Shown here piece after piece: positions 7,617-24,345 of a stretch of DNA of 64,000 nt. Made by a program: the position numbers and the translations under genes. Location of the stretch: the NCBI RefSeq assembly GCF_000214355.1, contig NC_015577.1, positions 434,001-498,000 on the forward strand, written 5' to 3'. Within the stretch, counting starts at the first letter, position 1; each line of letters opens with the position of its first letter. The notes under the pieces are model-generated. The model worked only from the letters and a program-made list of their open reading frames with translations. It was not told where the DNA came from and did not search any database. This DNA comes from Leadbettera azotonutricia ZAS-9 (GTDB taxonomy: Bacteria > Spirochaetota > Spirochaetia > Treponematales > Breznakiellaceae).

Positions 7617-7717
7617 ATGATGGGTAGTAAGCCTGTAGGCAATACTTCAATAAATAATCGGTTTCTCGAAATTCGTAAGGCAAAAGGACTTACCCAAGAA
7701 GAATTTGCGGATAGGAT
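7617..7717 (+). pseudogene. XRE regulator, N-terminal part (split by IS element)
   Basis: ATGATG start with AAGGA upstream. It encodes about 33 residues including FLEIRKAKGLTQEEFADRI, the first two helices of an XRE helix-turn-helix. The frame runs straight into the IS element at 7718. When the element and one copy of the duplicated GGAT are removed, the frame joins perfectly to 9126-9390 and gives 121 residues, the same size as the related XRE protein at 11381-11740. The break must be recent, since neither half has decayed. Confidence 0.9.
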
Positions 7718-9121: not shown

Positions 9122-9390
9122 GGATAAAGATAAGCCGCTCTATGATTAGCTCCATCGAGGAAGGGCAGCGGGAAGTAAAGGACCGCCTTATTTCTTTGGT
9201 CTGTTTTGTTTTTGGGGCAAATGAACATTGGATTAAAACCGGCAAAGGAACCATGTTCGATACTCCTAAAAATGAACGGCTGGAACGGATTATTTACCAT
9301 TTCAATAATTTAGACGAAAACTCCCAGGATTTTGTTTTGCAACATCTGGATCTGCTTATAAAATACCGGGAAAAAGAGGGTATAAAGTAA
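9122..9390 (+). pseudogene. XRE regulator, C-terminal part (split by IS element)
   Basis: Continues the protein begun at 7617: KISRSMISSIEEGQREVKDR completes the recognition helix, then FGANEHWIKTGKGTMF and a C-terminal helix ending IKYREKEGIK. It matches the intact regulator at 11381-11740 in the same order (NEDWLKNGAGEMF ... DYVMQQIDLAVKYHEK). An internal ATG at 9142 could start a fragment without the first helices, which would not bind DNA normally. The gene is in line with the small gene at 9534. Confidence 0.88.
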
Positions 9391-9483
9391 GGGATTCTAC
9401 GGTCCCATGCCCATCATAATTTAAAATTAGGCAATGCCATTTTTGAACTAATCCTGTATACCAGAAATTTACCGCTTGACCGT

Positions 9484-9523
9484 TTGACACAGTGCGTGAT
9501 AGACTAATAATACAATGTGTCAA
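9484..9523 (+). promoter_or_regulatory. Promoter within an inverted repeat
   Basis: TTGACA (9484-9489) and an A/T-rich -10 (TAATAATAC, 9505-9513) lie inside the inverted repeat TTGACACA (9484-9491) / TGTGTCAA (9516-9523). A repressor bound there would cover the promoter. The nearest candidate is the XRE protein whose gene, just upstream, is broken by the IS element; that link is inference. Confidence 0.5.
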
Positions 9524-9533
9524 GGCAAACCTA

Positions 9534-9815
9534 ATGGACAATAAAAACACGATTACCCAAAACCAGTGGATTGTCGATCTTTCCGCCATGACTTGTCGCC
9601 ACATAATCACGAACCTGGCCTTGCATTTTATACCGGAAGGCAAATCCCTCAAGCCAGAAATTCAGGATATACCCCTGGAATTATCAGCAACCATTGCCAA
9701 AAAACAAAACGATGTTTCTTATTTACAAAAGCTCATTGAGGAGGGCAAAGATGCTTTCCTCCGCGTCTACGCCGAAACCAATACAGACAACGGGGAAGGC
9801 CCATCCATTATTTAA
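9534..9815 (+). CDS. Small protein, unrecognised family (paralogue of 11908-12402)
   Basis: 93 residues from ATG 9534. A more upstream ATG at 9492 lies inside the promoter and is rejected. It is related along its whole length to the C-terminal half of the protein at 11908-12402: both have W(I)(V/A)DLS.MTCRH, N..LHF..EG.SL.PEIQD.PLEL, TIAKK, LQ.LIEEG and FLR.Y.E. The shared Cys-Arg-His and the regular hydrophobic spacing suggest a compact helical domain. I do not recognise it. Both copies sit beside XRE genes, so they may be partners or targets of those regulators. Confidence 0.7.
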   Translation: MDNKNTITQNQWIVDLSAMTCRHIITNLALHFIPEGKSLKPEIQDIPLELSATIAKKQNDVSYLQKLIEEGKDAFLRVYAETNTDNGEGPSII

Positions 9816-10308
9816 TATATTTTCTTAATTTAGCATTTATTGCAAAAAAATAATTTTCTAATTCTTTACCCCAATTATCATCTTTATCGTCATATTTGTA
9901 TAGTATTTTTGTTATTTCTAAATATTTGTTTTTTAATATTTCTCTTTCTTCTTTTGTCATATTTTCATTCCGTTCTTTTTCTTGATCTGCATATTCTTTT
10001 TCAAATCTTTTGTGTCTCATCTCTATAATATAATTTTTTAAATTTTTTCCATTCACAATATCAAAATTGTAATCATTAAGTAATATCATTAATCTTATTA
10101 TTTTTTCTTCATATATAAAATATTGATTAACAATTTCTTTCCACCTTTCATACTCTGCATATTGGTCTGCTTCTTTACGATCAGTTGTTGGATTAAATTT
10201 TTTTCCGCCTCCATTCTTTTCAAATGCTTCTATTATTTCACTTATTGAATAAAGAGGGTTTCTATACTCATTGATTTTATATAAAACCAATTTTAGTTCT
10301 CTTAACAC
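9808..10308 (-). CDS. Charged hypothetical protein of the DUF4238 operon
   Basis: 166 residues, rich in Lys and Glu, probably all helical with a coiled-coil tendency around residues 95-130. No family recognised. The first usual start is GTG at 10308, but this has no ribosome site. In the same frame 21 bases upstream an ATA codon (10329-10327) stands five bases after GGGAG, and would add FNLSLE before the GTG, making the N terminus a better helix. A rare AUA start is therefore possible. The gene follows the small membrane peptide gene and is the last of the XRE-DUF4238 operon. Its 3' end overlaps the convergent gene at 9815. Confidence 0.6.
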   Translation of the reverse strand: MLRELKLVLYKINEYRNPLYSISEIIEAFEKNGGGKKFNPTTDRKEADQYAEYERWKEIVNQYFIYEEKIIRLMILLNDYNFDIVNGKNLKNYIIEMRHKRFEKEYADQEKERNENMTKEEREILKNKYLEITKILYKYDDKDDNWGKELENYFFAINAKLRKYIK

Positions 10309-10354
10309 CTCTAATGATAAGTTAAATATATTTTCTCCCTTTAATTGGATTTTC

Positions 10355-10444
10355 CTAAGTTTTTAGTCCCATTGCAATAAAAATAATAGTTAATATTGCA
10401 ACTATTAATTCAACACTGTCCTTTATTAATAAAAACATATTCAT
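10355..10444 (-). CDS. 29-residue membrane peptide
   Basis: ATG 10444 with AGAGGT six bases before it. The peptide has a charged start (IKDSVE) and then a hydrophobic helix of about 17 residues (ELIVAILTIIFIAMG) ending GLKT, so a single-pass membrane peptide. It sits between the DUF4238 gene and the charged hypothetical gene, in the same direction. Its size and build resemble small toxins or holin-like peptides. No homologue recognised. Confidence 0.5.
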   Translation of the reverse strand: MNMFLLIKDSVELIVAILTIIFIAMGLKT

Positions 10445-10480
10445 ATTATACCTCTTGTCCTGTTTATTTCATTAATTAGA

Positions 10481-11380
10481 TTAAACTAATCCTTTTTTAC
10501 TATTGGAAAATAGAATGCCTCCACATTGACTTATCATTTTTGCATTATAATTTTTTACGTTTATTTCTTCTAGATCTAAAATATTCCCTGTTCCGAGAAA
10601 ATTCTCTTTCAAACATATTAAGAGTGCTAGGTTTGGAGTTATTGGATAATAAAATTCAAATTCATTTATCGTTAATTTTCTTAAATTGTTTTTGTCGGCG
10701 GCAATATTTACAACTGGCTGGTCAGATGTTAAAAATGGAATATCCGTATTATTATTTAATAAAACACATTTAAAATGATTTCTTTGCATAGATAATGTTG
10801 CCGCCAGATTTATTGCCAAAATATGAGAAACAAGATTCCAGCAATTCTCATAATTTACATTTTTTATTTCAATGTGTGTTTTCATCATTATTTCTTTCAT
10901 TGGTTTTGTTCTAAAATATTGTTCGCTTAAGAAGATATTAAAATCAATGTTTCCCTGGTCAGTATTATAAAATGAAATATCTTTCTTGTATAAGAAATTT
11001 AAATACTTTATAGAATTATTTTCAATATCAGTATGTATATCTTCATTGAATTCTTTAATTAGTTTATCTATTTCCTCTAAAATGTTACTGTCTTCAATTT
11101 TATCCTTTATGCTTATTATCTCATTTGCCCATAAAAACCTTGCTAGCCATTGTTTATCAACTTCTAATATTATTTTATTCATATCGTTAAAGAATATTTT
11201 TTTAATAAACTGGATATCATCTATAGTTAACATTTGTAATTTATAAAAATAATTCTCACTTGCAAAACCCTTTGTACCGGCAACAAGTAATTTCCCTTTG
11301 TTTTTACAAACAATTTTTCCATTCTTATCTGTCCACGGCTTTAAATAATGTTGCCATACATAATGGTTTAATTTCTTCAC
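10481..11380 (-). CDS. DUF4238 protein
   Basis: 299 residues. The start HYVWQHYLKPW, the later PFLTSDQPVVN and the FYYPITPNLALLI segment are the three landmarks of DUF4238, a family of unknown function often found in variable genome regions. The start is GTG at 11380, placed directly after the XRE stop codon, so the two are one mRNA with coupled translation. The gene is very AT-rich. No membrane segment. Operon: XRE, DUF4238, membrane peptide, charged protein. Confidence 0.75.
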   Translation of the reverse strand: MKKLNHYVWQHYLKPWTDKNGKIVCKNKGKLLVAGTKGFASENYFYKLQMLTIDDIQFIKKIFFNDMNKIILEVDKQWLARFLWANEIISIKDKIEDSNILEEIDKLIKEFNEDIHTDIENNSIKYLNFLYKKDISFYNTDQGNIDFNIFLSEQYFRTKPMKEIMMKTHIEIKNVNYENCWNLVSHILAINLAATLSMQRNHFKCVLLNNNTDIPFLTSDQPVVNIAADKNNLRKLTINEFEFYYPITPNLALLICLKENFLGTGNILDLEEINVKNYNAKMISQCGGILFSNSKKGLV

Positions 11381-11740
11381 TTACTTTTTATCCCCGTTTT
11401 TCTTTTCATGGTATTTAACCGCCAAATCTATCTGTTGCATAACATAGTCCTGTAAAAGCCCGTCCAGTTTCCGAAAGTCCCGGACAATCTTATCAATTTT
11501 AAGGTCAACTCCATTGTTGAACATCTCCCCGGCCCCGTTCTTTAACCAATCTTCATTCACCCCATATACCGAGCATATCAATAAGATAATCCGGTCATTG
11601 ATTTTCCGTTCCTGCAACTCGATATTACTAAAGTATCCCTGGCTTACGTTGATCCGCTTCCCGAATTCCTTTTGAGACAGCCCCAGGGCTTTCCGTACTT
11701 CAATAATGCGCTCGTGTATTTCCCGTTTCTGTTCTTTCAA
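11381..11740 (-). CDS. XRE-family regulator heading DUF4238 operon
   Basis: 119 residues. Helix-turn-helix at about residues 10-65 (IIEVRKALGLSQKEFG, then SQGYFSNIE), followed by the GVNEDWLKNG motif and a C-terminal helix that probably forms the dimer. It is the intact relative of the remnant at 7365 and of the IS-split gene. It diverges from the 11908 gene, and the 167 bases between hold that gene's consensus promoter, so it probably controls both directions. It is the first gene of the DUF4238 operon. Confidence 0.88.
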   Translation of the reverse strand: MKEQKREIHERIIEVRKALGLSQKEFGKRINVSQGYFSNIELQERKINDRIILLICSVYGVNEDWLKNGAGEMFNNGVDLKIDKIVRDFRKLDGLLQDYVMQQIDLAVKYHEKKNGDKK

Positions 11741-11803
11741 GTGGAACTATCTCCCCAAATTATAATACCCCAAATATGCCCCTTTAGCAATAATTCCCTT
11801 TCC

Positions 11804-11832
11804 TTGACAATATATCATTGCATTATTATAAT
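11804..11832 (+). promoter_or_regulatory. Consensus promoter for 11908 gene
   Basis: TTGACA (11804-11809) and TATAAT (11827-11832), both perfect, are 17 bases apart. The predicted leader is about 69 bases, with AAAGGG just before the ATG. Such a perfect promoter usually needs a repressor; the divergent XRE protein is the likely one. Confidence 0.75.
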
Positions 11833-11907
11833 TATATCTATGTAGAATATTTTGTTATTTCGGCGTTTATTTCAGTCCATTTCCCTATTTTTTTGTAAAA
11901 GGGTGTT

Positions 11908-12402
11908 ATGATGACAGAGCAGGAAAAAGTAGACTTCATTTCACAACAGATGAGGAGTTTGGATGCTGAAAGTTTGACCCATATTGCAGAACTCACCTGC
12001 GCCCTCGTCAGCCTCCCTTCCCCTATCCCCCCGGATGCCGCCACTTCAACTGCCCCTATTCCTCACACCGATAAAGGAGCCGTCCCGCCATCCCTCCTAT
12101 GCGATAAAAAAGTCAGGCCAAAAATGCCCGGTGATATAACCATCATACAAGGTTCCTGGATAGCCGACCTTTCCACCATGACCTGCCGCCATGTAGCCAA
12201 CAACATGATATTACACTTCGCAAAGGAAGGAAACTCCCTCATGCCGGAAATTCAAGATATGCCCCTGGAACTCTTATCAACCATAGCGAAAAAGCCGGAC
12301 AATCTTTCCAGTTTGCAAGAACTCATTGAAGAAGGGGAAGAAGTTTTTCTCCGTATCTACTTTGAAGCCAAAATAGAAAACGGCGAACCCCCGAAATCAT
12401 AA
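11908..12402 (+). CDS. Larger member of the unrecognised 9534 family
   Basis: 164 residues. The first 40 form an amphipathic helix region, residues about 45-75 are a Pro/Ala/Thr-rich linker, and the rest is the domain shared with the 93-residue protein at 9534 (WIADLSTMTCRH ... PEIQDMPLELLSTIAKK ... LIEEGEEVFLRIY). The other copy has only this domain, so the domain can stand alone. No family recognised. A perfect promoter drives it and it faces away from the XRE-DUF4238 operon. Confidence 0.75.
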   Translation: MMTEQEKVDFISQQMRSLDAESLTHIAELTCALVSLPSPIPPDAATSTAPIPHTDKGAVPPSLLCDKKVRPKMPGDITIIQGSWIADLSTMTCRHVANNMILHFAKEGNSLMPEIQDMPLELLSTIAKKPDNLSSLQELIEEGEEVFLRIYFEAKIENGEPPKS

Positions 12403-13031
12403 GCCCGTAGCAGTACAGCTTTTTTTACCCAAGACCAATAAAAGGGGGAAGTCTCCCCCACGCTTCAAAGCCTTCGGCTTTTCCGCTTCCCCCTCTACGG
12501 GGGCAAGCCCCCGTAACGCCCCCAAAGAAAGAAGAAATTGCTCCGCAATTTCAAAAACATTTACCTACGCCAACCGCCGCCTTTATCCACTCCATACGTC
12601 CCTTCGGGCTATTTACCGTATGGTAACGATTAACAAGGCGCTACCGCGCCCGGCGTTATCAGGGGAAATCATTCCGTAAACCCCTTTGTCATACTTTTTG
12701 CTTATGCGGCGGTGAGCGCCGCGCAAAAAGTACGCCAACCCTCCGCTAAGGAACCTACGGTTCCACGCTCCGGGCCGGGGCAATCTCCATTCGCATATCG
12801 GGAAATTTATTCCCTCCCTCAGCCGCATTTTTTAAGACTAACGTTAGCGGTAGCCATCATCCCTATAGAGTTAGGGTCGGTGGGTATGTGTTTTTCCCCT
12901 CGGGGGGAACCAGGGGGGCGGGGCTTGTGAGCCCCCCTGGCTCCCCCCTCAATAGGGAAAAAACAAAGGGGCGGGTCTGGGCTCAAGGCGGGGTTTTCCC
13001 TGTCTTATTCTATCCCGGTTCGGAGGTTTTT
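12403..13031. other. Hairpin-rich non-coding block
   Basis: About 630 bases without a convincing gene, but with many strong inverted repeats. The best are 12496-12515 (nine-base arms, loop AA), 12534-12552 (eight-base arms, loop TCC), 12692-12732 (ten-base outer arms with an inner GC stem) and 12902-12948 (18-base arms with one mismatch). G/C runs alternate with A/T. Open frames here only read across the repeats. It could be a transfer or replication origin, or the template of structured RNA. Confidence 0.5.
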
Positions 13032-13259
13032 ATGTATGGTCCTAATCTTACAGAGTTCGGCGCCGTTGCGGTTCGCCGTTTGGCGTGGGCTATCGGTACA
13101 AACATGGCGGAGGCCATAGATTTTATGGCCCTGTACTTGCCGCAAAAAATGGACATGGCCTTTGTTTGTAAGTATTGCAAGGACAAGTCAAAATGCGGGG
13201 CTTGCTCTTTTAATCCCCAGGTCAATAACAGCCAAAAAACGGCTTTACCAGCCGTCTAA
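13032..13259 (+). CDS. Small protein with four-Cys motif
   Basis: 75 residues from ATG 13032, chosen because GGAGG stands five bases before it; the frame extends upstream but only through hairpin sequence. The N-terminal half is helical. Residues about 47-56 read CKYCKDKSKCGAC, a CxxC-x5-CxxC arrangement fit to hold zinc or an iron-sulphur cluster. I recognise no family. It leads a row of three small genes in the same direction. Confidence 0.6.
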   Translation: MYGPNLTEFGAVAVRRLAWAIGTNMAEAIDFMALYLPQKMDMAFVCKYCKDKSKCGACSFNPQVNNSQKTALPAV

Positions 13260-13305
13260 ACTACATCCCCCCGGTTTCTGCCGGGGGCATATTCAGGGGG
13301 TTTCT

Positions 13306-13563
13306 ATGGTTTGTTATCAGGTAACAGCGCAGTTTGTTTTTTTCCAGCATAAACCGCTATTGGCTTCTACCAGTACAAAAAAACAAGAAGCAAAGGCTTT
13401 TCTTGTTCTGTCCGGATTGCCTTTCGGTCATGCCCTCAAATACAGCCGCTTTTTTCATACTCAAAAAGAAGCGGCTAACTATGTTTCCTATCTCAATAGG
13501 GTTTACAAAAACCGTATTATTTCCAGCCCCGCCCATCAGGACGGTCAATTATCTTTATTCTAG
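13306..13563 (+). CDS. Small mobile-element protein
   Basis: 85 residues from ATG 13306 with a GGGGG ribosome site. The frame goes on upstream, but those codons overlap the previous gene. The sequence YSRFFHTQKEAANYVSYLNRVYKN suggests a small alpha/beta domain; it ends QLSLF. No function known. It is followed after 11 bases by the next gene, so it is part of a small operon. Confidence 0.55.
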   Translation: MVCYQVTAQFVFFQHKPLLASTSTKKQEAKAFLVLSGLPFGHALKYSRFFHTQKEAANYVSYLNRVYKNRIISSPAHQDGQLSLF

Positions 13564-13574
13564 GAGTAACCAGA

Positions 13575-14081
13575 ATGAAAAGCATTACTACTATTCAGGA
13601 CTTAGTAACCTATATCAAAAATAATTCCTCATGGTCTACCGCCACCGTTCAAAACGTCATAAACTCTTTAGGGTACAATCCTGCAGATGATCGCCCGGAA
13701 AGCCTCAAAGAACTATCCGGCAACCTTGCGGACTGTTCCAAACATGGAGCGGACGGCGGCTTTTCCGGCTTCTGTTACCATTCCGAAACAATCGCCTTTT
13801 TCCTCCACAACCGCAGGGACATCATAAAAAACCTGGAACTATTGGCGGAGGAACTAGGGGAGGACATTATAAAAATGGTTCAAGGTTTCGGCGTGTTCCG
13901 CTATGCCACACCCCCAACAGCGGGGGAAGTAGGAAAGGCCCTCTGGGATTCAGGCAAACTACAGGACAATTTAACCACCTTGTATAATGTTTTCTCTTGG
14001 TTCTGCTTAGAGGAAATCTCCCATACTTGGTTCAGGTACTTGGAAGATAACCCGGATTATTACGCAGAATTAACCGCATAA
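13575..14081 (+). CDS. Phage/plasmid-type conserved hypothetical
   Basis: 168 residues. The central HGADGGFSGFCYHSETIAFF segment is typical of a protein family carried by phages and plasmids (possibly DUF7222). The protein is soluble. TAGGAG precedes the ATG. It ends the 13032-14081 operon just before a two-way terminator shared with the capsid gene. Function not known. Confidence 0.6.
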   Translation: MKSITTIQDLVTYIKNNSSWSTATVQNVINSLGYNPADDRPESLKELSGNLADCSKHGADGGFSGFCYHSETIAFFLHNRRDIIKNLELLAEELGEDIIKMVQGFGVFRYATPPTAGEVGKALWDSGKLQDNLTTLYNVFSWFCLEEISHTWFRYLEDNPDYYAELTA

Positions 14082-14090
14082 CATGACAAA

Positions 14091-14125
14091 AAAAGGCCGC
14101 CCGGTTATCCGCCGAACGGCCTTTT
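14091..14125. terminator. Two-way terminator
   Basis: Arms AAAAGGCCG and CGGCCTTTT are perfect complements with A and T runs on both sides, so it can serve the plus-strand operon ending at 14081 and the capsid gene ending at 14145. Confidence 0.8.
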
Positions 14126-14144
14126 GCTTTTTAGCAATGATGCT

Positions 14145-15452
14145 TTATGGTTTTGTTTTCAGTATGACCATATTCCCCGATGGCCGTGTAACCAAAAACC
14201 CGTCCCGCTTGCGGAACCGCAGGAATAGTTCCCCGTATTCCATGCTTTCGGTTGTACCGTCAAATTTTTTGATCTCGATCCCCTTCCGGTTTCCGTGTTG
14301 AATTCTTTTAGGGTTCATAAAGATCGCAAAAGCCGTATCGTTTTCAACCGCCCCGATCTGCGGCATGATGGAAACCTCATGATACGGATACAGATCGAGC
14401 TTGCCCGGCATGGCCTCCGTAGGATGCCTCCAAATTGGCCGCCCGTCAGCGTCCTCAATGTTGGCAATGTGGTTAAGGACCGTTTCATGCAGGAACCACG
14501 CACAATCCTTGCGTTCCTCCGCAGGAACCCGGTAAACAGCGTCCCGGAAGTCCTTCCACGTCAAGCCGTTTATATCCGCCCCGGCAATTTCAACCTCCTC
14601 CGCCCCATCCACCGCCATTGCCCCGGTAAAGGGATCATCATCGGCAAGCAAACATTGACGGTCAAATTCCACCGCATAGGCTTCGGTGAATTCCTCCATG
14701 AACATAGTCCCCAGATCGATAAAAACATCCTCCTCAAATTCATCGTACCAAGGGATATACCCGGCCAGCGTATAGGCTTTCAGTTCAACCCGCTGCGCCC
14801 CCTGGGGCTTGCTCCCCGTGATCTGCTGCCCGTAGGCAGTAAGCCAGTGAAGCTGAACCCCGCCCCGGTCCCGTGTCGGCAGGAAGATAGAAGGCCCCAT
14901 CATCGGCCTATGACGCACCAGCCCCATCATTACCGATTTTTTGGCAGCGTCAGTCATGATTTCCGTTTCGTAAATCGGATTGATGAGGTATTGATCATTG
15001 GTTGCCATGTTCCCCATCGGCGAGCCGAGGGCTGCCTTTTCATTGACGTTCCAGCCCTTTTCCCCCCAACTAACATCACGGGGATTAGTCCAGTTATCCG
15101 CCTTGAAGTTCGGCGAAAAAGACAAATCGGCAAGGGCCTTGTGGTTCCTCGCCCAGGCCGCCGCAATCCCCCTGCCAATGTTGTAGCACAATTCCCGCCG
15201 GGTCAGTTCTTTGGGGTAGGCCGCCTTCGTTTTAAGCTCATCCCGCAGACTCTTGACCGTGGCTTTCAGGGCTTCGGTCTCCGCCTCCTGCCCATCGGAA
15301 ACCGCCTCCAAGGTCTTGACGATTTCTTCAAGGATAAACTCTTTTTCCCGGAAGTATTCCGCCGCCTTACTCTGATCGGTAAAACCCGAAGCCTCGACCT
15401 TTTTCATAGCCGCCAGCTTCGCCTTTATCGCCGCAATTAGTTCTTTACCCAT
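14145..15452 (-). CDS. Phage major capsid protein (HK97 fold)
   Basis: 435 residues. An N-terminal helical, charged part of about 115 residues is the scaffold-like delta domain usually removed by the protease; then the capsid body with TLAGYIPWYDEFEEDVFIDL, WFLHETVLNHI, IWRHPTEAMPGKLDLYP and the last strand DGFLVTRPSGNMVILK, all in HK97-type order. AAGGGG precedes the ATG. It follows the protease gene, as is usual. It is the last gene of the head cassette; no tail gene follows. Confidence 0.85.
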   Translation of the reverse strand: MGKELIAAIKAKLAAMKKVEASGFTDQSKAAEYFREKEFILEEIVKTLEAVSDGQEAETEALKATVKSLRDELKTKAAYPKELTRRELCYNIGRGIAAAWARNHKALADLSFSPNFKADNWTNPRDVSWGEKGWNVNEKAALGSPMGNMATNDQYLINPIYETEIMTDAAKKSVMMGLVRHRPMMGPSIFLPTRDRGGVQLHWLTAYGQQITGSKPQGAQRVELKAYTLAGYIPWYDEFEEDVFIDLGTMFMEEFTEAYAVEFDRQCLLADDDPFTGAMAVDGAEEVEIAGADINGLTWKDFRDAVYRVPAEERKDCAWFLHETVLNHIANIEDADGRPIWRHPTEAMPGKLDLYPYHEVSIMPQIGAVENDTAFAIFMNPKRIQHGNRKGIEIKKFDGTTESMEYGELFLRFRKRDGFLVTRPSGNMVILKTKP

Positions 15453-15474
15453 ATTTTACCCCTTCATATTCTGT

Positions 15475-15522
15475 GGAGTTTGCGTACGCAAACTCCTAAA
15501 CAAAAATGCGTTAGCATTTTTG
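15475..15522. promoter_or_regulatory. Two palindromes between protease and capsid genes
   Basis: A perfect 22-base palindrome (15475-15496) and a hairpin with nine-base arms and a GTTA loop (15501-15522) lie side by side in the gap; the second overlaps the protease stop. Both would form in the mRNA just before the capsid ribosome site, so they may stop or cut the mRNA and set the capsid level. Confidence 0.6.
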
Positions 15523-16173
15523 TATAAATCCACCCCAAAAATCGGAGCTTGATTTCCTGTTACTAATTTCCTTATGCCTTGCTGTTGCCAAGGCATAAGG
15601 ATTCGCCGGAACATTGCACACACTGAATTCCAAAAGTTCCTGTTTTCTGAAAATCAATGACGTTCCATCTTCACCATCCTTTTTTGACGGAATTTCTATC
15701 TCGATAGGGCGGAACCCCACCGACCCCGCCCGGATTACTCCGGCCTTGACTCGTTCCCCGATACCCCAGCCAAAGGGATCAAATTCCTTGCCGTTAAAAA
15801 TGATAATCCCCCGCAGCCCCTTTTCATCGGCAACAATGTTTTCCGCCCGGCCAATCGCCGGAATGTCAAAGCAATGCGCCCACTGGATAACCGGGTTTTT
15901 CAAATAACATGAAAAGTCCCAACCAGAGGGATCAATCCGTTCCCCCATACGATCCAAGTCAAAACTTGAAAAGACCCACGGTACACCGCCGCCGCCTTCC
16001 CCATCGGAACATCCAACGAAGTTCCCCCCGGAAAGAGCAAACGGCACAGGGGCAATCAACTCAATGTCAGACGGCACCTTTACGGTCTGCCCCTCCGGTG
16101 TAACCCCAAGGAATTGTAAAATCCCTTTACCGTCCAATTCCTTAAATTCCCCGCTCTTATAACGAATTAACAT
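15511..16173 (-). CDS. Prohead serine protease
   Basis: 220 residues. SSFDLDRMGERIDPSGW, NPVIQWAH with the catalytic His100, AGSVGFRP with Ser151 and ELLEFSVCNVPANPYAL are the four landmarks of HK97-type prohead proteases. It cuts the capsid delta domain during assembly. The gene lies between the LuxR-like gene and the capsid gene. Length normal. Confidence 0.88.
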   Translation of the reverse strand: MLIRYKSGEFKELDGKGILQFLGVTPEGQTVKVPSDIELIAPVPFALSGGNFVGCSDGEGGGGVPWVFSSFDLDRMGERIDPSGWDFSCYLKNPVIQWAHCFDIPAIGRAENIVADEKGLRGIIIFNGKEFDPFGWGIGERVKAGVIRAGSVGFRPIEIEIPSKKDGEDGTSLIFRKQELLEFSVCNVPANPYALATARHKEISNRKSSSDFWGGFIQKC

Positions 16174-16185
16174 ACAACCCCCTTG

Positions 16186-16842
16186 TTACATACACAAATC
16201 ATCCCGGCGTATCTCATCCAGCAAAAAACACTGCTTAAAAAGCCCTAAACTATTCTTCACACAGTAGGACGTAAAAAGCGCCTTCTTATGAATCTCCACG
16301 GTTTTAACACTAACCCCCAGGGTATCCGCAATTTCCTTACTGCTTTTCCCATCCAGAATCAGGCGCTTAACATCTTCCTGCCGGTCCGTCAAATCAAGTT
16401 TCAAATCCGGTATATCATCGGGCAAGGCTTCGTAGGCTTCCTCAACATTGCCGGAAATATACGCTTCATTACGGAGCACCTTTTTTAGTGCCCGGCGAAA
16501 CGAGCTTAACCCGGAGTTAAAATCAATAACGCTCTTTACACCGAACCGTAGAAATTCTACCAGCCCTTCCGCTTGATACGAATTGACATTGATCACCGCA
16601 ATATTCAGGTCAGGCCGATCCTTTAATAAAAGACCAATCCGGCGAGGCGTAGCACTCAAATAAAACACAGCGTCGAACAAGATAAGTTCAGGGCTTAACA
16701 TACTAATAAGCCGGTTAAGGTCTCTGCCCCCTTTGGTGGTTGCCATAACACGCCGCAAATGCAACTGTTTCAGCAGGTAGATACCCAGAAGGTTCAGACT
16801 TTCCGAGCGGCTTACCAGCAGAACCGGACTAAGCATTTTCAT
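16186..16842 (-). CDS. LuxR-type regulator inside phage head cassette
   Basis: 218 residues. The C terminus (151-190: LTDRQEDVKRLILDGKSSKE then IADTLGVSVKTVEIHKKALF) is a textbook LuxR helix-turn-helix. The N terminus is receiver-like, with an Asp at 57 (LILFDAVFY), but lacks the acidic pair near residue 12 (SRSES) needed to bind magnesium, so it is probably not phosphorylated. It starts inside the portal gene (overlap 16829-16842) and ends 13 bases before the protease gene. A regulator in this place is unusual for phages. Confidence 0.85.
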   Translation of the reverse strand: MKMLSPVLLVSRSESLNLLGIYLLKQLHLRRVMATTKGGRDLNRLISMLSPELILFDAVFYLSATPRRIGLLLKDRPDLNIAVINVNSYQAEGLVEFLRFGVKSVIDFNSGLSSFRRALKKVLRNEAYISGNVEEAYEALPDDIPDLKLDLTDRQEDVKRLILDGKSSKEIADTLGVSVKTVEIHKKALFTSYCVKNSLGLFKQCFLLDEIRRDDLCM

Positions 16843-18076
16843 TGTCCCCTCCCTTGCCCCCGGTAGTGGGTATCATATTTTTGGGTCGATACCACACATC
16901 ACCCCAGGGCTTCTTATCCTTCCCCCTTTCCTGTAACACTTCATTGATTGTCTTTAATCCCGCATTGATTTCCGCAATATCCCGGTTGCTTTGAGCATCT
17001 TCGCTTTCCTGTAGTTCAGGTATATCACCCAGGTTAAATTTTCCGGTTTCGCGCAATCCAAAGCGGATAAAAAATTGAGTCTCCAGAATGTTTTCAAATT
17101 GTCGTAATGTTGGAATTAAGGTATATTGCCAGAAGGCGCTATGCTGTTCCTGGGTATCCTTCCCGGACAGTGCCGTTGACTTGTCTGATATATTGGCAAC
17201 CCGTGGCGGGATGCCGTACTTTGCTAAAATAGTGTAGAGGTTCCAGCGTTTAAGCTCGAACAGTTTTACCACTTCCGGGGTAAAGGACAGCGGTTCAAAA
17301 CTGGTTCCCTTGCCGAGTACCGCAATTTTCCGGTTCGCCTTTACCGCCCCGTATTTGCTTTCCCACCGCTTCTCTAATGCGTCAGCTTCTTCCGGCCTGA
17401 TAGTCTGATCAGTTTTCAGTATCCCCATCGGGACCGCATTATTTTTTAGTAATTGGGAATTTGCTTTATTGGCGTAGTAGTCCTGTTCCAGTTCCAGGGA
17501 AAGGGCAATAAGCGGATTAACCCCCCGTACCGGATTCCAGGGGTTCCAGTCCCGGAACTGGATCAATTCGTCAGTCAAAATAGGTATCAGATCGGTATCA
17601 GTCTGAAAAAACCACCGCTTGTTTAGTTGATGAAATGGATCATATACGCCCCCCGCCGTAACACCTTCATGCCGCACCCGTCTCGGATCAAGAATGTAAA
17701 TTTCATGCGGCAACCCGCCATCGTAATCCGGCCCAAACCACCAGAACGCCTCGCCTTCCAGATACCACCAAGCCGCCGTTTCCTTCCAAAGATCATAGCC
17801 GGACACCATGCGGTTCGGCCTTCGGAACAGTTCATACAGCGGCCCGCTTGTTACCTCGTTACCCCCTCGGATCAAACCAAATTCCGCACGGGCAATATTG
17901 CGGATCAAAATACTTACCGCAATGTTCACCCATGCCGAATATAAGTATGCACTACTTTCTGACAAAATTGGTAAATTATTTTGAAATTCGTCATCCATCG
18001 GATAGTCCGGCCTGTCCGCTTTCGATTGAAACTTAAACTGTTTTATTCCCCTGATGAGCGGCGTAAAGATACTCAT
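16829..18076 (-). CDS. Phage portal protein
   Basis: 415 residues. LIPILTDELIQFRDWNP, NNAVPMGIL, PEEADALEKRWESKYG, the VLGKGTSFEPLSF segment and GIPPRVANISDKSTALSGKD match HK97-type portals, the ring through which DNA enters the head. It overlaps the terminase gene by four bases (18073-18076) and the LuxR-like gene by 14. Full length. Confidence 0.88.
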   Translation of the reverse strand: MSIFTPLIRGIKQFKFQSKADRPDYPMDDEFQNNLPILSESSAYLYSAWVNIAVSILIRNIARAEFGLIRGGNEVTSGPLYELFRRPNRMVSGYDLWKETAAWWYLEGEAFWWFGPDYDGGLPHEIYILDPRRVRHEGVTAGGVYDPFHQLNKRWFFQTDTDLIPILTDELIQFRDWNPWNPVRGVNPLIALSLELEQDYYANKANSQLLKNNAVPMGILKTDQTIRPEEADALEKRWESKYGAVKANRKIAVLGKGTSFEPLSFTPEVVKLFELKRWNLYTILAKYGIPPRVANISDKSTALSGKDTQEQHSAFWQYTLIPTLRQFENILETQFFIRFGLRETGKFNLGDIPELQESEDAQSNRDIAEINAGLKTINEVLQERGKDKKPWGDVWYRPKNMIPTTGGKGGDNENA

Positions 18077-19302
18077 TGCGCTATTACCCCCTGCTGCACA
18101 TCGGAAAACACCGCATACCGGAGGGCATCCATAAAATGATCATTGACCTTGATTATTTCTCCCGCCTCATCCCGACAGTAATCCCAAATCTCCGAAAGAA
18201 CGCCAGTACAGCCATCGGCGACAAAAAATTGTCCCCGTTCTATCTTCGCATTGATAAAATCAATTCCGCTTTCAACGCTGTTATTTGCTTTAACGCCCCC
18301 GGTAATTTCCTGTATCCGTTCCCCGCCAGCCGGATCGCAGTACACCGGAAAACTGAAACTATCAGGCCCCAGATCAAACCAATGGCGGGCGGTAAGTTCT
18401 TCGTTAAAAGATTTAGTGGTCATGTTGAAAGCACCGTAGTCGGCAATCACATAAACAACCTCATGCACCCAGCCGATTTTTACATTCGTAATATTCAGGC
18501 CGAAGTCCTGTCCTGCACAAATCCGGTCATAGTCCTTGGGCATATCCGCTGCTTTCAAAATCATGGATTCATCGAAAAGCTCATAGATCACGCCCTCGGC
18601 CTTAACCCACGCCCCATCCCGGAACCGTGCCTTTTGTTTTTCCGGCATGGCCCCCAGCACATCGGAAATATAGTCATCGGGCAAATGCTCCGCATTATCA
18701 GCCGGATTAAGTATCATCGAGGCGTACAGTTCCGGCTTTACCAGCGGTTCCCCGTTTAGGAATTGCTGCTTGCGAATGAAAATCCGGTAAGCCCAATGCA
18801 AAGGGCTTCCAGGGTTGCAGTCGTACAGAAACAAATTCCGGCACCCCGGCACCCGCATAGCCAACCGGGAATAGGCCGTAGTAACCGAAATATAACTAAG
18901 CTGCGAAATCTCATTGAAGTAGATCGTATTATATTCATGCCCCAGGATTTTATCCGCTTGTTCCCGATCCCCTAATCCGCCAATCCAAATCTCCGACCCG
19001 TTGAAAAGGGTAATCATGCTTTCATGTGCCAGATAGTTATAGCGGTTAGTCCCAACGGTATTGGTAAGGGCCGGTAAAAGCGTTTCCCGCAGTACGGAAC
19101 TTCGGGCATCCTTGGCCCGGTAACGGCAAATCAAATGCCGGGAACTCGCAAAGCGGATCGCCCGGTAGATGATCACCATCACCAGCACCGTAGTCTTGCC
19201 CGACCGGGAACCGCCAAACAACAAGATATGTTTTGCGCCGCCCTTTACCAGTTTTAACGCTTGCCGTTGTACCGTAGTGGGCTTAAACACCGTCATACTC
19301 AA
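18073..19302 (-). CDS. Phage terminase large subunit
   Basis: 409 residues. Walker A GGSRSGKT at 30-37, Walker B with Glu131 (NTIYFNEIS), then an RNase H-like nuclease part with AGQDFGLN, VYCDPAG and DHFMDALRYAV supplying the acids. This is the PBSX-type terminase motor that cuts and packs DNA. It overlaps the portal gene and the small subunit gene by four bases each. Complete, so packaging may work. Confidence 0.92.
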   Translation of the reverse strand: MSMTVFKPTTVQRQALKLVKGGAKHILLFGGSRSGKTTVLVMVIIYRAIRFASSRHLICRYRAKDARSSVLRETLLPALTNTVGTNRYNYLAHESMITLFNGSEIWIGGLGDREQADKILGHEYNTIYFNEISQLSYISVTTAYSRLAMRVPGCRNLFLYDCNPGSPLHWAYRIFIRKQQFLNGEPLVKPELYASMILNPADNAEHLPDDYISDVLGAMPEKQKARFRDGAWVKAEGVIYELFDESMILKAADMPKDYDRICAGQDFGLNITNVKIGWVHEVVYVIADYGAFNMTTKSFNEELTARHWFDLGPDSFSFPVYCDPAGGERIQEITGGVKANNSVESGIDFINAKIERGQFFVADGCTGVLSEIWDYCRDEAGEIIKVNDHFMDALRYAVFSDVQQGVIAQ

Positions 19303-19841
19303 AGCCCCTCAAAATCCGGCAGAAACGTAATCTGCCCGTTCTTATCGACCTGTCCCTCCGGCTTATCCTTCCCGGTAACAAGCCCCGCACTTTCCCGCTC
19401 CGCCCGTATCGCCGTAGAAACCCACTCCGTTACCGTCCCTTGGCCCAGCTCCGCCGGGTCCATCAGGTCAAGTTTCTTTTCAACCACCCGCAGCATTTTT
19501 CCCGTAATGGCCCGGTGAACCTTCCCCTGTTCTTCAATGGTTTTCCGCAGCTCCGCCTGTTTCAGTTTGTCTACATAGCCGTCATAATCCGCCGCCCGTT
19601 CCCGCCACTTGAACGCCGCCGCCCAGCCCCGCCAAACCCGGTACTTCTTCCCCCGCTTTTTTTCATCCTCCTCTGCTGCTTCAACTGCCTTGCGGATATT
19701 CCGTTCCGGCCCAAAATCCCGGAAAGCGCAGAACGCCGCAAACGCCCCCGCACTTTCCCCGGCCAGCCGTTCCCAGCTTTCAAAAGGCATTATTTCCGCT
19801 TGCACCGCTTCAATCGTTTTGTCTATTTCAGTAGGTTCCAT
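19299..19841 (-). CDS. Putative terminase small subunit
   Basis: 180 residues from ATG 19841 (MEPTEIDKTIEAV), chosen for the G-rich ribosome site just before it; an ATG at 19892 would add 17 residues and overlap more of the excisionase-like gene. The RVWRGWAAAFKWRERAADYD region and the long helices after it are like small terminase subunits of spirochaete prophages. The identity rests mainly on position before the large subunit. Confidence 0.6.
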   Translation of the reverse strand: MEPTEIDKTIEAVQAEIMPFESWERLAGESAGAFAAFCAFRDFGPERNIRKAVEAAEEDEKKRGKKYRVWRGWAAAFKWRERAADYDGYVDKLKQAELRKTIEEQGKVHRAITGKMLRVVEKKLDLMDPAELGQGTVTEWVSTAIRAERESAGLVTGKDKPEGQVDKNGQITFLPDFEGL

Positions 19842-20109
19842 CCCGCCCCCCTTCCGGTAGTTCCTCCCCCGGTACGCCATCTTGCTGTCCATCCCCAGCA
19901 GTTAAATAAAGCTCCTCCCCCGCAAGCGGCTTTACTGCCACCTTCCCGCCCGTGTTAATCCACACATCTATTTCCGAGGGCCGGAACCGGATCGCCTTAA
20001 AAATCTTGTGGAAAGGTATCTGGTGTAAAAACACATACTTGCGAATAGCCGCCACACTTAACTTGGTCAGCTTCGCCACATCGTTAATGTCTAATAATTG
20101 TTCAACCAC
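19828..20109 (-). CDS. Excisionase-like DNA-binding protein
   Basis: 93 residues. LLDINDVAKLTKLSVAAIRK followed by IPFHKIFKAIRFRPSEIDVW is the MerR-type winged helix of the excisionase family (HTH_17). The 35-residue tail is disordered. It is the first gene of the packaging operon, preceded by an inverted repeat at 20194-20212. Such proteins direct excision or, in satellites, act as AlpA-like activators. Confidence 0.75.
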   Translation of the reverse strand: MVEQLLDINDVAKLTKLSVAAIRKYVFLHQIPFHKIFKAIRFRPSEIDVWINTGGKVAVKPLAGEELYLTAGDGQQDGVPGEELPEGGRDGTY

Positions 20110-20371
20110 GATTCACCCCCAAAACAGCAAAGCCAGAAGCCGTTCCCTTGGCCTTGCCGTATAGTGAAAATCGCATGGTTAGATCAGGAAGTAATTAGGG
20201 GTTTTCCCTAATTGCATGCTTTTGTTGGTTTTTTTTAGGGTAAAGAAAGCCCCCTGTCCGGAAGTATTAGCGGCTTTTCATCCCGCCATTGATTGCGCTC
20301 ATAATCAGTCAATTAGTTGGTGAAGGGGTAAGTAAGCGGCGGCGCAGTTAGGAGAAGGCCGGGCCAAACAA
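20110..20371. other. Upstream region of packaging operon
   Basis: About 260 bases without a gene. It contains the inverted repeat at 20194-20212. No promoter for the operon is clear. Confidence 0.4.
20194..20212. promoter_or_regulatory. Inverted repeat, copy 2 (attaggggttttccctaat)
   Basis: Perfect seven-base arms (ATTAGGG / CCCTAAT) with a five-base centre, about 85 bases before the excisionase-like gene. Copies at 3407 and 22104. Confidence 0.55.
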
Positions 20372-20522
20372 GAGCCGCCGGGTTTGAGGGCAGGGCAGCG
20401 AGCCTTCCCGACAGCGGAGCCGGGTTTGAGGGCAGGGGCGATGAGGCTTCCCGACAGCGGAGCCGAGTTTAAGGGCAAGGGCGATGAGGCTTCCCGACAA
20501 CAGAGCCGGGTCTGTGGGCAGA
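20372..20522. repeat. Tandem repeat, 43-base unit
   Basis: Three and a half copies beginning GAGCCGGGTTTGAGGGCAGG at 20372, 20417, 20460 and 20503; the period is 43 bases, the first unit having two extra bases. Copies differ at a few places. It lies between the excisionase-like gene and the integrase 3' end. There are no unique spacers, so it is not a CRISPR array. Confidence 0.85.
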
Positions 20523-20525
20523 AAA

Positions 20526-20561
20526 AAGCCCCTACCGCCAGTGATGGAGCGATAGGGGCTT
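20526..20561. terminator. Hairpin at integrase 3' end
   Basis: Arms of 13 bases (20526-20538 and 20549-20561) pair with one mismatch. The stem lies just beyond the integrase stop on the minus strand and would end its transcript. Confidence 0.65.
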
Positions 20562-20580
20562 ACAGTCTTGAAATGTTCGT

Positions 20581-21972
20581 TTAGCCGTGCCGGTGTTTTT
20601 TCCGGTGAACCGTTACCAGCGCCCGCCTTGCTTCATGCCGCCCGGTAGTATATCGCCGGACCCGGCCCGGTTGCCTTGCCGGTTCCCCGGTCCCGCTAAC
20701 CGCAGGGGTTTCTGATAATAAGATATGGTCTTGAACATCAGCAATTTCGGTGAAGGTAGTGGTATCAAAATCAGTATAACGCTCGGTCATTTGCTCGGTA
20801 ACATGGCCGATAACCGCACGGGTTTTAGCGTCAGCAACATTATTAACCCGCAGGGTGGTGTTGAAGAAATGCCGCCACGCATGGGGCGTTAAGTTCCGCT
20901 GTTTCTTTTCGTCCTCGTCAATGCCAATCTTGGAAAGTCCCGCCGCCAGCGCCTTATTAAACATATACCGGGAGATGGGGGAAGCCCCGCCGTCATCGGA
21001 GAACAAGAACCCGTCCCCGTTCAATGCTTTTAGTTTGTCCAGCGGATCAAGAACAGTACGGGAAGTGGGTATCTGCCGTACCTTTTTAGTCTTAGTTTGT
21101 CGGTAGTTGTGTTTGGTATCATATTGCCCCGCCACCCTGATATAGTTTTCAAAGATGCAGGAACCTTTAAGCCCCAGCACTTCCCCGATCCGCATACCCG
21201 TTACCGCCGCCGTCATGTTGGCAACTTGCGCTAATTCATGGGCAAAGGCAAATTTCCGTAAATCCTTTTTTTCCTTCCCTGCTTGATCCGGCCCTTCCAG
21301 CAAGGGAACGGCGCTTTTCATTTTCGGGGTAAACATATCCCGTGCTTCGGTGGGTGTCAGGATTTCAACTACTTTCCCCTCGGCGGTCAATTCCTCGACT
21401 GTTTCAGCAGGGTTAAACAGTATCAGCTTTTCCGCAACCGCCTGTTTCAGCATAAGCCGCAAAATCCCGTAAATCACATTAGCCGATGATGTTTTAAGTT
21501 TTTTCACCGTACCCGGCGTTAAGACCCCGGCATCCTTGGGTTTCTGCCCCTTCTTTTCCTGTTCCGGTAAGTTCGTCAGGAACCTGTCGCAATCTTCACG
21601 GGTAATCCGGTCAAGCCGCATTTTCCCAAAGTAGGGCAGTATCCAATTTTTTGTATGCCGCTTGCAGGTATCGACATAGGCTTGGGTCAGCCCCTTGCGA
21701 TACTTCTTGGCTTTCAGGTATTGGCAGGTATCCCATTCCCACCATCCTTCCGCAAACTCCGCAAAGGTCTTTATCTTCTTGCGCTCCGCCGGAAGCAGCA
21801 ACCCGTCCTTCATAAGCTGTTGGCACTTCTTAACCGCCAGGGTCTTGAGGCTCTCCCCCGTGGAATGGGGGTTAATCCTGAACCCGTCCTCATCATAGGC
21901 TTGGTAATAATAAATCACCTTGCCAGTAGCCATCTTGCGTGGAAAAACCGTAAAATTCGCCTTAACTCTCAT
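20581..21972 (-). CDS. Tyrosine recombinase (phage integrase)
   Basis: 463 residues. N-terminal arm-binding part, a core-binding SAM-like domain (about 65-180) and a catalytic domain with Arg261 (GMRIGEVLG), His364 and Arg367 (HAWRH), His390 and Tyr399 (TERYTDF). All residues needed for strand exchange are present, so it should be active. The C terminus after 420 is a basic tail. It is transcribed toward the packaging genes. An inverted repeat at 22104-22121 lies upstream of it. Confidence 0.93.
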   Translation of the reverse strand: MRVKANFTVFPRKMATGKVIYYYQAYDEDGFRINPHSTGESLKTLAVKKCQQLMKDGLLLPAERKKIKTFAEFAEGWWEWDTCQYLKAKKYRKGLTQAYVDTCKRHTKNWILPYFGKMRLDRITREDCDRFLTNLPEQEKKGQKPKDAGVLTPGTVKKLKTSSANVIYGILRLMLKQAVAEKLILFNPAETVEELTAEGKVVEILTPTEARDMFTPKMKSAVPLLEGPDQAGKEKKDLRKFAFAHELAQVANMTAAVTGMRIGEVLGLKGSCIFENYIRVAGQYDTKHNYRQTKTKKVRQIPTSRTVLDPLDKLKALNGDGFLFSDDGGASPISRYMFNKALAAGLSKIGIDEDEKKQRNLTPHAWRHFFNTTLRVNNVADAKTRAVIGHVTEQMTERYTDFDTTTFTEIADVQDHILLSETPAVSGTGEPARQPGRVRRYTTGRHEARRALVTVHRKKHRHG

Positions 21973-22103
21973 AATTCCCTACCTCTCCCGGATTCTGCTG
22001 TCTTTGCTGCTATCACCCAGGAATTCACCATTTCAGGTAAAACCGACCAGCAACGCTAAGTCTATATGTCATAAGGAATTATCACACTTTAAGAACGCCC
22101 GCT

Positions 22104-22121
22104 ATTGGGGTTTTCCCTAAT
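22104..22121. promoter_or_regulatory. Inverted repeat, copy 3 (attggggttttccctaat)
   Basis: Third copy of the motif at 3407 and 20194, about 130 bases before the integrase start. One arm base differs. Confidence 0.5.
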
Positions 22122-22145
22122 CTTTACTTTTTTCTGAAAAAAAGC

Positions 22146-22174
22146 TTGACCCCGCGAGGTTTTATGAGTATTTT
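22146..22174 (+). promoter_or_regulatory. Promoter of candidate small RNA
   Basis: TTGACC (22146-22151) and TATTTT (22169-22174) are 17 bases apart and predict a start at 22181, directly before the first stem of the RNA described next. Confidence 0.45.
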
Positions 22175-22180
22175 AAATTA

Positions 22181-22337
22181 ACCTGATAACACGGTTATTC
22201 AGACCAGCGTTTTACAGTAATGTTCTACACCTGAATTATTCATTGGTCTGAATTGCTTAAACATCTACTGCAGCAGCAGCCGGTTATCAGAGTTGCCTCC
22301 CGGGTTTCTTCACCTCCTTTTCCCGGGGGGTTTTTTT
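22181..22337 (+). ncRNA. Candidate structured small RNA with anti-Shine-Dalgarno loop
   Basis: The roughly 157-base segment has its own promoter, an outer stem (22183-22190 CTGATAAC with 22283-22290 GTTATCAG), an inner stem of nine perfect pairs (22198-22206 with 22244-22252) and ends in a rho-independent terminator (22296-22304 with 22322-22330, then seven T). The terminator loop holds CACCTCCTTT (22311-22320), equal to the 3' end of bacterial 16S rRNA. No open frame of note. Small RNAs with CU-rich loops block ribosome sites on mRNAs; that role here is inference. It could instead be an attenuator left by a lost gene. Confidence 0.5.
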
Positions 22338-22410: not shown

Positions 22411-24345
22411 ATGGAACAGGCGAAGGAACAGCTAAAAGAAAAGACCCTGCCCCTCATGCTTCGTTCCCGGGTGAGGGAAGCGCCGGAGATCGTTGTCCAA
22501 TACTCAAAAGATCCGGCGGGCTGGTTTATCACCAAGACTTACCATCAGCTTTATGACGAGGGCCGGTGGGTCGCGGCGGGGCTTTTGGAATTGGGGGCCA
22601 AGCGGGGGGACCTGGTGGGGCTTATCTCGGATAACCGCCAGGAATGGCTGGCAGCTGACTTCGGCATTCAGGCGATCGGGGCTGCGGATGTGCCCAGGGG
22701 GTCTGACACCCTGAACCAGGAGCTGAGTTACATACTTTCGTTTACGGGCTGCGGCATTTCTTTTGCAGAAAACCAGAAGCTGGCAGTCAAACTGCTTTCG
22801 TGCAAGGCGGATTTGCCTGAGCTAAAAATCATTGTTACCTTTGAGACTGTGGGCGCTGAAATTAAGGCCGAGGCCGAATCCCTGGGGATAACAATTTATT
22901 CCTACCGGGAACTCCTCAACCTGGGGAAAAACCGCAGGGAGATTTACCCTGGCGAGGTGGATGCTGAAATTGCCAAGGGCAAGGGGGATGACACTGTTAC
23001 GGTGATCTTTACTTCGGGCACAACAGGCGAACCCAAGGGGGTCATGCTGACCCACAAGACTTTTCTCTGCCAGGTTCCGCGTTTCCATTTGGTTTTTGAC
23101 ACCAAGCCCGGGGAGATTTGGCTTTCGGTACTGCCTGTGTGGCATGTGTTCGAGCGGGCCATCGAGTATGTGGCTCTCTACCATAAAAACGCCATTGCAT
23201 ATTCCAAGCCCATTTCGTCGGTACTTATGGCGGATTTTGCAAACATCAAACCCCACTGGATGGTGGCTGTTCCCCGGGTGTGGGAAGCTGTCATGGACGG
23301 TATTTACCGCAGCGTAAAACTGATGGGGAAATTCCAGGAATTCTTTTTCAACTTTTTTGTTTCTTTCGGTCTCATGTATGCTTATTTTAGGGATCTTGCA
23401 TTTGGGCTTATCCCCAATTTCCATGGGAGGGTAAGGGCTGTCGATGCGGTTCTGGGGTTTTTCCCCTGGCTGCTTTTGGCGCCTGTCCGGGGCCTGGCGT
23501 ATCTCATTGTGTTCCGCCGCCTCAAGCTCAGGCTGGGCGGCCGCTTCAGGGCTGGTATTTCCGGGGGCGGCGCCCTCCCTGCCAGGGTGGACCACTTCTT
23601 CAACGCTGTGGGATTGCGGCTGCAGGAAGGGTATGGCCTCACTGAGACTTCGCCCATTGTGAGCGTGCGCCAGTACCGCAAGAGCCGGCGGGGGACTATC
23701 GGGCAGATTCTGGTTGACGATACTGAATTCAGGATTCTGGATGACAAGGGGCGCGAATTGCCCCCGGGCAGCAGCGGCATACTTTATGTCCGGGGCCCTC
23801 AGGTGATGAAGGGCTATTACAAAAAGCCTGAACTGACTGCCGAGGTATTGAGCGCTGATGGCTGGCTTAACACGGGGGATATTGCCATGCATACCCGGGA
23901 CGGGGAGCTTCGCCTTACGGGCAGAGCCAAGGATACTATAGTGCTCAGGGGGGGCGAAAATGTTGAGCCTGTCCCCATTGAGAACAAGCTTAAAGAAAGC
24001 CCCCGCATCGGGCAGTGCGTGGTACTGGGGCAGGACCAGAAGTATTTGGCAGCCCTCATTGTGCCGGTGCAGGATGCGGTCATGGCTTTTGCGGAGGAGA
24101 ACAATATCCCCATTGTGGATTATGAGCTGCTCCTCCAGCAGCCTGAGATTGTCGAGATTATTTCGACTGATGTGGCGGATTTGGTCAACGCCAGGAATGG
24201 ATTCAAAGCCTTTGAGCGGATTTATAAATTCAAACTTTTGCCCAGGGCTTTTGATCAGGGAACTGAAATATCATCCAAACAGGAACCCCTGCGCCATAGG
24301 ATCATGATCAATTACGCAAAGGATATTCAAACCCTTTTTAAATAA
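22411..24345 (+). CDS. Long-chain fatty acid-CoA ligase (AMP-forming)
   Basis: 644 residues. The AMP-binding motif TSGTTGEPKG is at 201-210, GYGLTETSP at 407-415, then the hinge TGDIAMHTRDGELRLTGRAKD and the late catalytic region. It joins fatty acids to CoA using ATP. The length and the insert after the VLPVWHVFER segment are those of the FadD15-like long-chain ligases. No ribosome site is seen; the promoter implies a near-leaderless mRNA. A perfect operator overlaps the promoter. The 3' end overlaps the convergent NUDIX gene by 19 bases. Confidence 0.88.
   Translation: MEQAKEQLKEKTLPLMLRSRVREAPEIVVQYSKDPAGWFITKTYHQLYDEGRWVAAGLLELGAKRGDLVGLISDNRQEWLAADFGIQAIGAADVPRGSDTLNQELSYILSFTGCGISFAENQKLAVKLLSCKADLPELKIIVTFETVGAEIKAEAESLGITIYSYRELLNLGKNRREIYPGEVDAEIAKGKGDDTVTVIFTSGTTGEPKGVMLTHKTFLCQVPRFHLVFDTKPGEIWLSVLPVWHVFERAIEYVALYHKNAIAYSKPISSVLMADFANIKPHWMVAVPRVWEAVMDGIYRSVKLMGKFQEFFFNFFVSFGLMYAYFRDLAFGLIPNFHGRVRAVDAVLGFFPWLLLAPVRGLAYLIVFRRLKLRLGGRFRAGISGGGALPARVDHFFNAVGLRLQEGYGLTETSPIVSVRQYRKSRRGTIGQILVDDTEFRILDDKGRELPPGSSGILYVRGPQVMKGYYKKPELTAEVLSADGWLNTGDIAMHTRDGELRLTGRAKDTIVLRGGENVEPVPIENKLKESPRIGQCVVLGQDQKYLAALIVPVQDAVMAFAEENNIPIVDYELLLQQPEIVEIISTDVADLVNARNGFKAFERIYKFKLLPRAFDQGTEISSKQEPLRHRIMINYAKDIQTLFK

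Follow-up and report, generated by a model that had tools for sequence, protein, structure and literature searches.

Organization of the sRNA locus

The window analysed here is a 64,000-nt stretch of the Leadbettera azotonutricia ZAS-9 genome (NC_015577.1, positions 434,001 to 498,000). Between the right part of a prophage and a gene for an acyl-CoA ligase, it contains a candidate small RNA (sRNA) gene of the long form, here called class A (Table 1). The original prediction had described a promoter, two stems, a terminator and its loop at this locus, and all of them are present in the sequence where it had placed them. The body of the RNA probably consists of the outer and inner stems, followed by a rho-independent terminator at the 3' end that doubles as the effector. 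The predicted 157-nt RNA folds with -52.4 kcal/mol, corresponding to a z-score of -5.8 against dinucleotide shuffles, and its terminator loop has a predicted unpaired probability of 1.0. Further downstream, the promoter-like site of the ligase ends 10 nt before the ATG, so that the ligase mRNA would be nearly leaderless.

Table 1. Features of the sRNA locus and its surroundings (positions in the window).
Feature	Position	Strand	Basis or remark
Right part of 36.2-kb prophage (G000 about 419.92-456.14 kb)	1..22144	.	PHROGs, repeat, displaced upstream element
Tyrosine integrase of prophage	20581..21972	-	Pfam PF00589 and PHROG integrase; start 157 nt from att core
Right 16-bp repeat TTTTTCTGAAAAAAAG, putative att core	22129..22144	+	Bounds prophage
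Promoter, sigma70-type TTGACC-17-TATTTT	22146..22174	+	Sequence; pair and spacing kept in 111/113 instances
-35 box TTGACC (17-nt spacer follows)	22146-22151	+	Sequence
-10 box TATTTT	22169-22174	+	Sequence
Predicted sRNA transcript, ~157 nt, class A (long form)	22181..22337	+	Promoter/terminator spacing, fold z -5.8, alignment of 64 homologues
Outer stem, 5' arm CTGATAAC	22183..22190	+	Pairs with 22283-22290; both-side changes in 8/13 outer-stem pairs
Inner stem, 5' arm TTCAGACCA	22198..22206	+	Pairs with 22244-22252; both-side changes in 7/7 pairs tested
Inner stem, 3' arm TGGTCTGAA	22244..22252	+	Same covariation count
Outer stem, 3' arm GTTATCAG	22283..22290	+	Same covariation count as outer 5' arm
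Terminator hairpin	22295..22331	+	Arms GCCTCCCGGG (22295-22304) and CCCGGGGGGT (22322-22331); both-side changes in 5/10 pairs
Terminator loop, 17 nt, TTTCTTCACCTCCTTTT	22305-22321	+	Sequence
Anti-SD copy TCACCTCCTTT in terminator loop	22310..22320	+	Equals 16S rRNA 3' tail; other genome copies only at two 16S ends
CACCTCCTTT within terminator loop	22311-22320	+	Sequence
Terminator T-run, seven T	22331..22337	+	Sequence
Promoter-like TTGACA-16-CATAAT of ligase	22374-22401	+	Sequence
AMP-binding acyl-CoA ligase	22411..24345	+	Also follows the sRNA in the loci of 22 relatives

The arrangement could be read as a 5' leader or attenuator of the ligase gene, which lies downstream on the same strand here and in the loci of the 22 relatives. 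That neighbourhood is limited to those loci, however, and many copies of the element have other neighbours. Some 74 nt lie between the strong terminator at which the RNA ends and the ligase, and the predicted fold shows no antiterminator pairing. Because of these other neighbours, and because the ligase has a promoter-like site of its own, a leader role is unlikely; we give such a cis element a very low probability.

Conservation of the element

More than 110 distinct copies of the element were found in spirochaete genomes, nearly all of them in Treponema and the Breznakiellaceae. A BLAST search with a 206-base query (E 0.1 or better) gave hits in 59 of the 99 relatives. Its strong matches span some 50 genera, all in the same family, and cover the terminator block at ~85-96% identity. 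The 30 loci fetched by BLAST were gathered without requiring the loop, and loop invariance among them is free of pattern bias: CACCTCCTTTT is present in all 30, and the full 11-mer in 29. A pattern scan of the GTDB species genomes yielded 109 stretches, all in spirochaete records, among them termite-gut Treponema MAGs, Breznakiella homolactica and Gracilinema caldarium. The loop was part of the search pattern, and its invariance is therefore partly built into this set, as it is into the set of 113 sequences. Viral contigs gave 0 matches to the family loop pattern and 14 to a shorter 17-base pattern, which is near the chance expectation.

The promoter takes the form TTGACC-17-TATnTT across the family. 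Hexamers of the TTGnnn and TAnnnT types are separated by exactly 17 nt in 111 of the 113 instances (those with enough flank), and the -35 box reads TTGACC in 77 of the 113. The information content approaches 2 bits in the -35 core, the -10 box and the terminator loop, and is near 0.1 across most of the body; CACCTCCTTT reaches 2.0 bits per position in the class A sequences. The near-invariant loop sequence of the family is YTCACCTCCTTTT, and the loop is predicted to be exposed in all homologues, with a mean unpaired probability of 0.998 for CACCUCCUUU (113 homologues). Two size classes are distinguished by the distance from the -10 box to the loop. Most copies belong to class A (~105-135 nt), while class B (~60-72 nt) comprises one short hairpin and the terminator without the long body, and some genomes hold both.

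Covariation was counted directly on the named structure in 64 class A sequences (alignment A1), since RNAalifold on a MAFFT alignment recovered the terminator only; it misses the outer stem because bulges and variable loops misalign that stem. The named structure has 88.6% paired cells, and both-side changes occur in 20 of its 30 pairs, distributed over the three stems as given in Table 1. The 104 both-side cells observed compare with 37 in shuffles, and none of 500 shuffles reached the observed value. Sliding the partner by 1-3 columns abolished the signal. A swap control is uninformative for the outer stem, as its 5' arms are alike between genomes. The terminator stem illustrates the compensation, with CCCGGG replaced by CCCAGG...CCTGGG around an unchanged loop.

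Since the promoter is kept, the stems covary and the loop is near-invariant over many genera, the reading of the element as an sRNA gene, already made in the original prediction, is strongly supported; the conserved stems with compensating changes, whose absence was to count against that prediction, are present in the homologues. A promoter of its own and a rho-independent terminator are kept together across species, as expected of a stand-alone gene. Selection acts across many genera on the gene, its promoter, the three stems and the near-invariant, unpaired loop.

The element is also similar in length to housekeeping RNAs (6S, tmRNA, SRP or RNase P) and shares a long outer stem with them, and the Rfam 6S model (RF00013) matches neither the element nor any other site in the ZAS-9 genome, where control models did match. 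A divergent member of this group is nevertheless hardly credible: no family of Rfam 15 matches the element at the gathering score, and the relaxed threshold returns only snoRNA and anti-hemB hits at chance level. Moreover, the fold has no symmetric central bubble, an ARAGORN search of the window for tmRNA was negative, and the short copies of class B do without the long body. Searches of the open literature returned no description of these RNAs in spirochaetes. The element represents a computationally well-supported spirochaete sRNA family without an Rfam entry.

A prophage inserted upstream of the promoter

The genes next to the junction, to the left of the sRNA, encode an integrase, an excisionase/HTH protein, terminases, a portal protein and a head protease, as assigned with Pfam and PHROGs. 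The left copy of the 16-bp repeat that bounds this prophage lies outside the window (G000:C1:419923-419938). A single nucleotide separates the end of the prophage from the -35 box downstream of it, and the sRNA body is left intact. Repeats of at least 13 bases of the sRNA itself were not found in the 30 kb to the left. The suggestion that the sRNA might be the integration target holds in that the prophage directly adjoins its promoter, but the insertion is not inside the RNA gene.

In 25 relatives (class A loci), an element of the TTAC-N-TAAT type precedes the -35 box by 30-35 nt. A weight matrix of this element was run across 60,560 positions in the 30 kb to the left of the window. The top-scoring position, 419903, coincides exactly with the left repeat; once the flanks are joined, the element comes to lie 34 nt upstream of the -35 box. 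Therefore, the prophage split the promoter from this conserved upstream element: 36.2 kb of phage DNA are inserted between the two. We infer that lysogeny changed the control of the sRNA in ZAS-9.

In the 25 class A loci (L015, L049 and L060, for example), the upstream element is palindrome-like (TTACNNNNATAGTAATA) and may be a regulator-binding site. A different upstream block, TATGTCATAAAT...GCAAGAAAGTAC, recurs in L042, L064 and L112. Some relatives (L011, L029 and L032) have thrS as the upstream neighbour, which in ZAS-9 lies 52 kb away. Only ~36 kb of this distance is prophage, and the position of thrS alone was therefore not enough to locate the integration site. No homologues of the left-flank proteins were found in the fetched loci.

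Relatives outside the family

When a covariance model built on the terminator was applied, 197 of 294 genomes of the order (E 0.01) and 49 of 247 genomes of a phylum sample (E 0.001) gave matches. About 60 weaker matches, read individually, proved to be a mixture that includes ordinary G+C-rich terminators (L254, L206), and this weak end is not counted as homologues. Relatives in other Spirochaetia carry CCUCC-U loops, and clear relatives with CCUCCUU loops and promoter-like sites of their own are represented by L168, L174, L175, L176, L186 and L202. The bases 5' of the core vary outside the family (UUUUAACCUCC, UUUACCUCC, UUUUCCUCC), while CCUCCUU, the partner of AAGGAGG, remains constant. 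The loci of these relatives have no match in Rfam.

Two hairpins in tandem, both with a GGUUUC(U)ACCUCCUUUCC loop, make up a further form, found in L246-L248. Together with L274, these loci have near-identical GGTTTC(T)ACCTCCTTTCC loops downstream of a TTGACA-type promoter, and their architecture is the closest to that of the 'cuckoo' RNAs discussed below. A second sRNA-like type, carried by T. denticola-like genomes and by several families, contains two CCUCCUU motifs, one upstream and one in the terminator loop (L169, L171, L179, L184, L185, L188-L190, L192, L195-L198, L201, L204, L205 and L278). It has a different promoter-like pair, TGTAAC/GTTACC ... TTGTTATA.

In two members of the phylum (L256, L257), a terminator with a GTTTCACCTCCTTTTC loop directly follows tRNA genes. 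Such cases favour the view that the loop is a mere feature of strong terminators and has no regulatory role. Within the family, however, the model matches just 1-4 sites per genome, with one strong site in ZAS-9; nearly all copies of classes A and B are preceded by a promoter of their own, and stem covariation is seen in the class A bodies, which makes this view quite improbable. The weak second site of ZAS-9 (409422-409465) has a loop without CCUCC and is not counted as a copy. It falls in a 71%-identical stretch outside the window (G000:C1:409374-409465; L002, L277) that resembles the 3' half of the sRNA in decayed form and adjoins an ABC-transporter ATPase gene.

The terminator loop and its proposed mode of action

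The 3.86-Mb genome contains three copies of TCACCTCCTTT, one in the sRNA loop and one at each of the two 16S 3' ends. The identity between the loop and the anti-Shine-Dalgarno (anti-SD, aSD) sequence noted in the original prediction is thereby borne out, and at 11 nt is one nucleotide longer than it had claimed. The window has a single hairpin whose loop holds CACCTCCTTT, compared with a mean of 0 in 100 Markov-shuffled windows. The long form has one aSD loop per RNA, with the sequence UCACCUCCUUUU.

The best reading of the loop is that of an anti-SD seed; the global regulator or stress sponge of the original prediction would be a further, hypothetical role. The sRNA would be a trans-acting RNA of ~157 nt, transcribed by sigma70 polymerase, whose 17-nt terminator loop displays an exact copy of the 16S rRNA 3' tail (UCACCUCCUUU). 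This loop would pair with the SD sequences of several mRNAs, ~4-8 nt at a time, and would keep the 30S subunit off them without Hfq; the Hfq model (Pfam PF17209) has no match in the ZAS-9 genome, whereas control models matched. We consider this mechanism reasonably probable, because the kept bases pair with SD sites, the loop is open, and NfeR1 provides a precedent (see below).

The full 11-nt complement, AAAGGAGGTGA, has no mRNA site in the ZAS-9 genome and is found only antisense to the sRNA gene and to 16S. Long SD sites are scarce genome-wide, with 9 instances of AAGGAGGT-N3-9-ATG and 23 of the reversed control pattern. Pairing would therefore have to use shorter SD matches, and near the starts of genes in and next to the window these are mostly 3-7 nt. 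The nine genes with AAGGAGGT-N3-9-ATG include ilvC and ECF-transporter-like, DnaJ-like and YezD-like genes (names read from the sequences). The sRNA may thus target either a small number of genes with strong SD sites or a broad range of genes with weak effect.

A loop so well conserved could equally bind a protein. It might serve as a decoy of the 16S tail that titrates a protein binding the 16S 3' end (an rRNA-maturation, initiation or hibernation factor, or Era) in place of pairing with mRNAs. The 11-nt identity with the tail and the absence of the full-length loop complement as an mRNA site agree with such a role. However, only the SD-pairing core is kept outside the family, and Era is known to read GAUCACCUCC, whereas the motif in the sRNA loop is not preceded by GA. 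We give the decoy a low probability.

If SD pairing is the mechanism, a terminator loop would itself be used as a seed. A more far-reaching proposal, for which our confidence is slight, is that RNAs copying the 16S tail, tandem two-hairpin forms included, govern initiation globally and without Hfq throughout the spirochaete class and possibly more widely, and that the ZAS-9 prophage exploits or rewires this system by integrating at the promoter. Carrier genomes would then be expected to limit long SD sequences. The regulatory RNAs of treponemes are almost uncharted, and the family described here is common to dozens of termite-gut genera, with relatives reaching other spirochaetes, T. denticola-like genomes included. 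The insertion of a prophage in the control region of an sRNA also offers a testable case.

Comparison with known small RNAs

The sRNAs RsaE/RoxS and LhrC of Firmicutes have CU-rich loops, and their cytosine-rich single strands pair with SD regions. The likeness to RsaE drawn in the original prediction stands as a loose mode of action but does not extend to kinship, as motifs and folds differ and the spirochaete RNA matches no Rfam family. In RepG of Helicobacter pylori, a C/U-rich terminator loop is the seed and targets a G-repeat in one mRNA leader; a seed of this kind would be common to both RNAs, with no homology shown.

AbcR1 and AbcR2 also have CU-rich aSD motifs in unpaired regions that are thought to bind ribosome-binding sites, but they bind Hfq and form three stem-loops (PMC7143759), in contrast to the spirochaete RNA, whose genome has no match to the Hfq model. 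The closest parallel is found in the alpha-r14/NfeR1 'cuckoo' sRNAs of Alphaproteobacteria (PMC10746234, PMC7143759), which likewise combine an ultraconserved unpaired aSD loop with sequence-variable stems, are preceded by a sigma70 promoter and a conserved upstream box, and occur in several copies per genome in some species. The aSD loops of NfeR1 silence mRNAs in reporter assays, and an 8-nt pairing is predicted at the ribosome-binding site (PMC10746234). The alpha-r14 RNAs have three hairpins, each with an identical CCUCCUCCC, whereas the long form in spirochaetes has a single aSD terminator loop, UCACCUCCUUU, that copies the 16S tail exactly; two aSD loops are present in the S. thermophila-like and class C spirochaete forms. 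Alpha-r14 belongs to the Rhizobiales, all 109 stretches matched here are from spirochaetes, and no sequence relation is seen between them. By analogy, the best mechanism for the spirochaete sRNA would be one that resembles the working of the alpha-r14 RNAs without homology; if it holds, anti-SD regulation of the 'cuckoo' type evolved independently in a second phylum, and there in a genome lacking Hfq.
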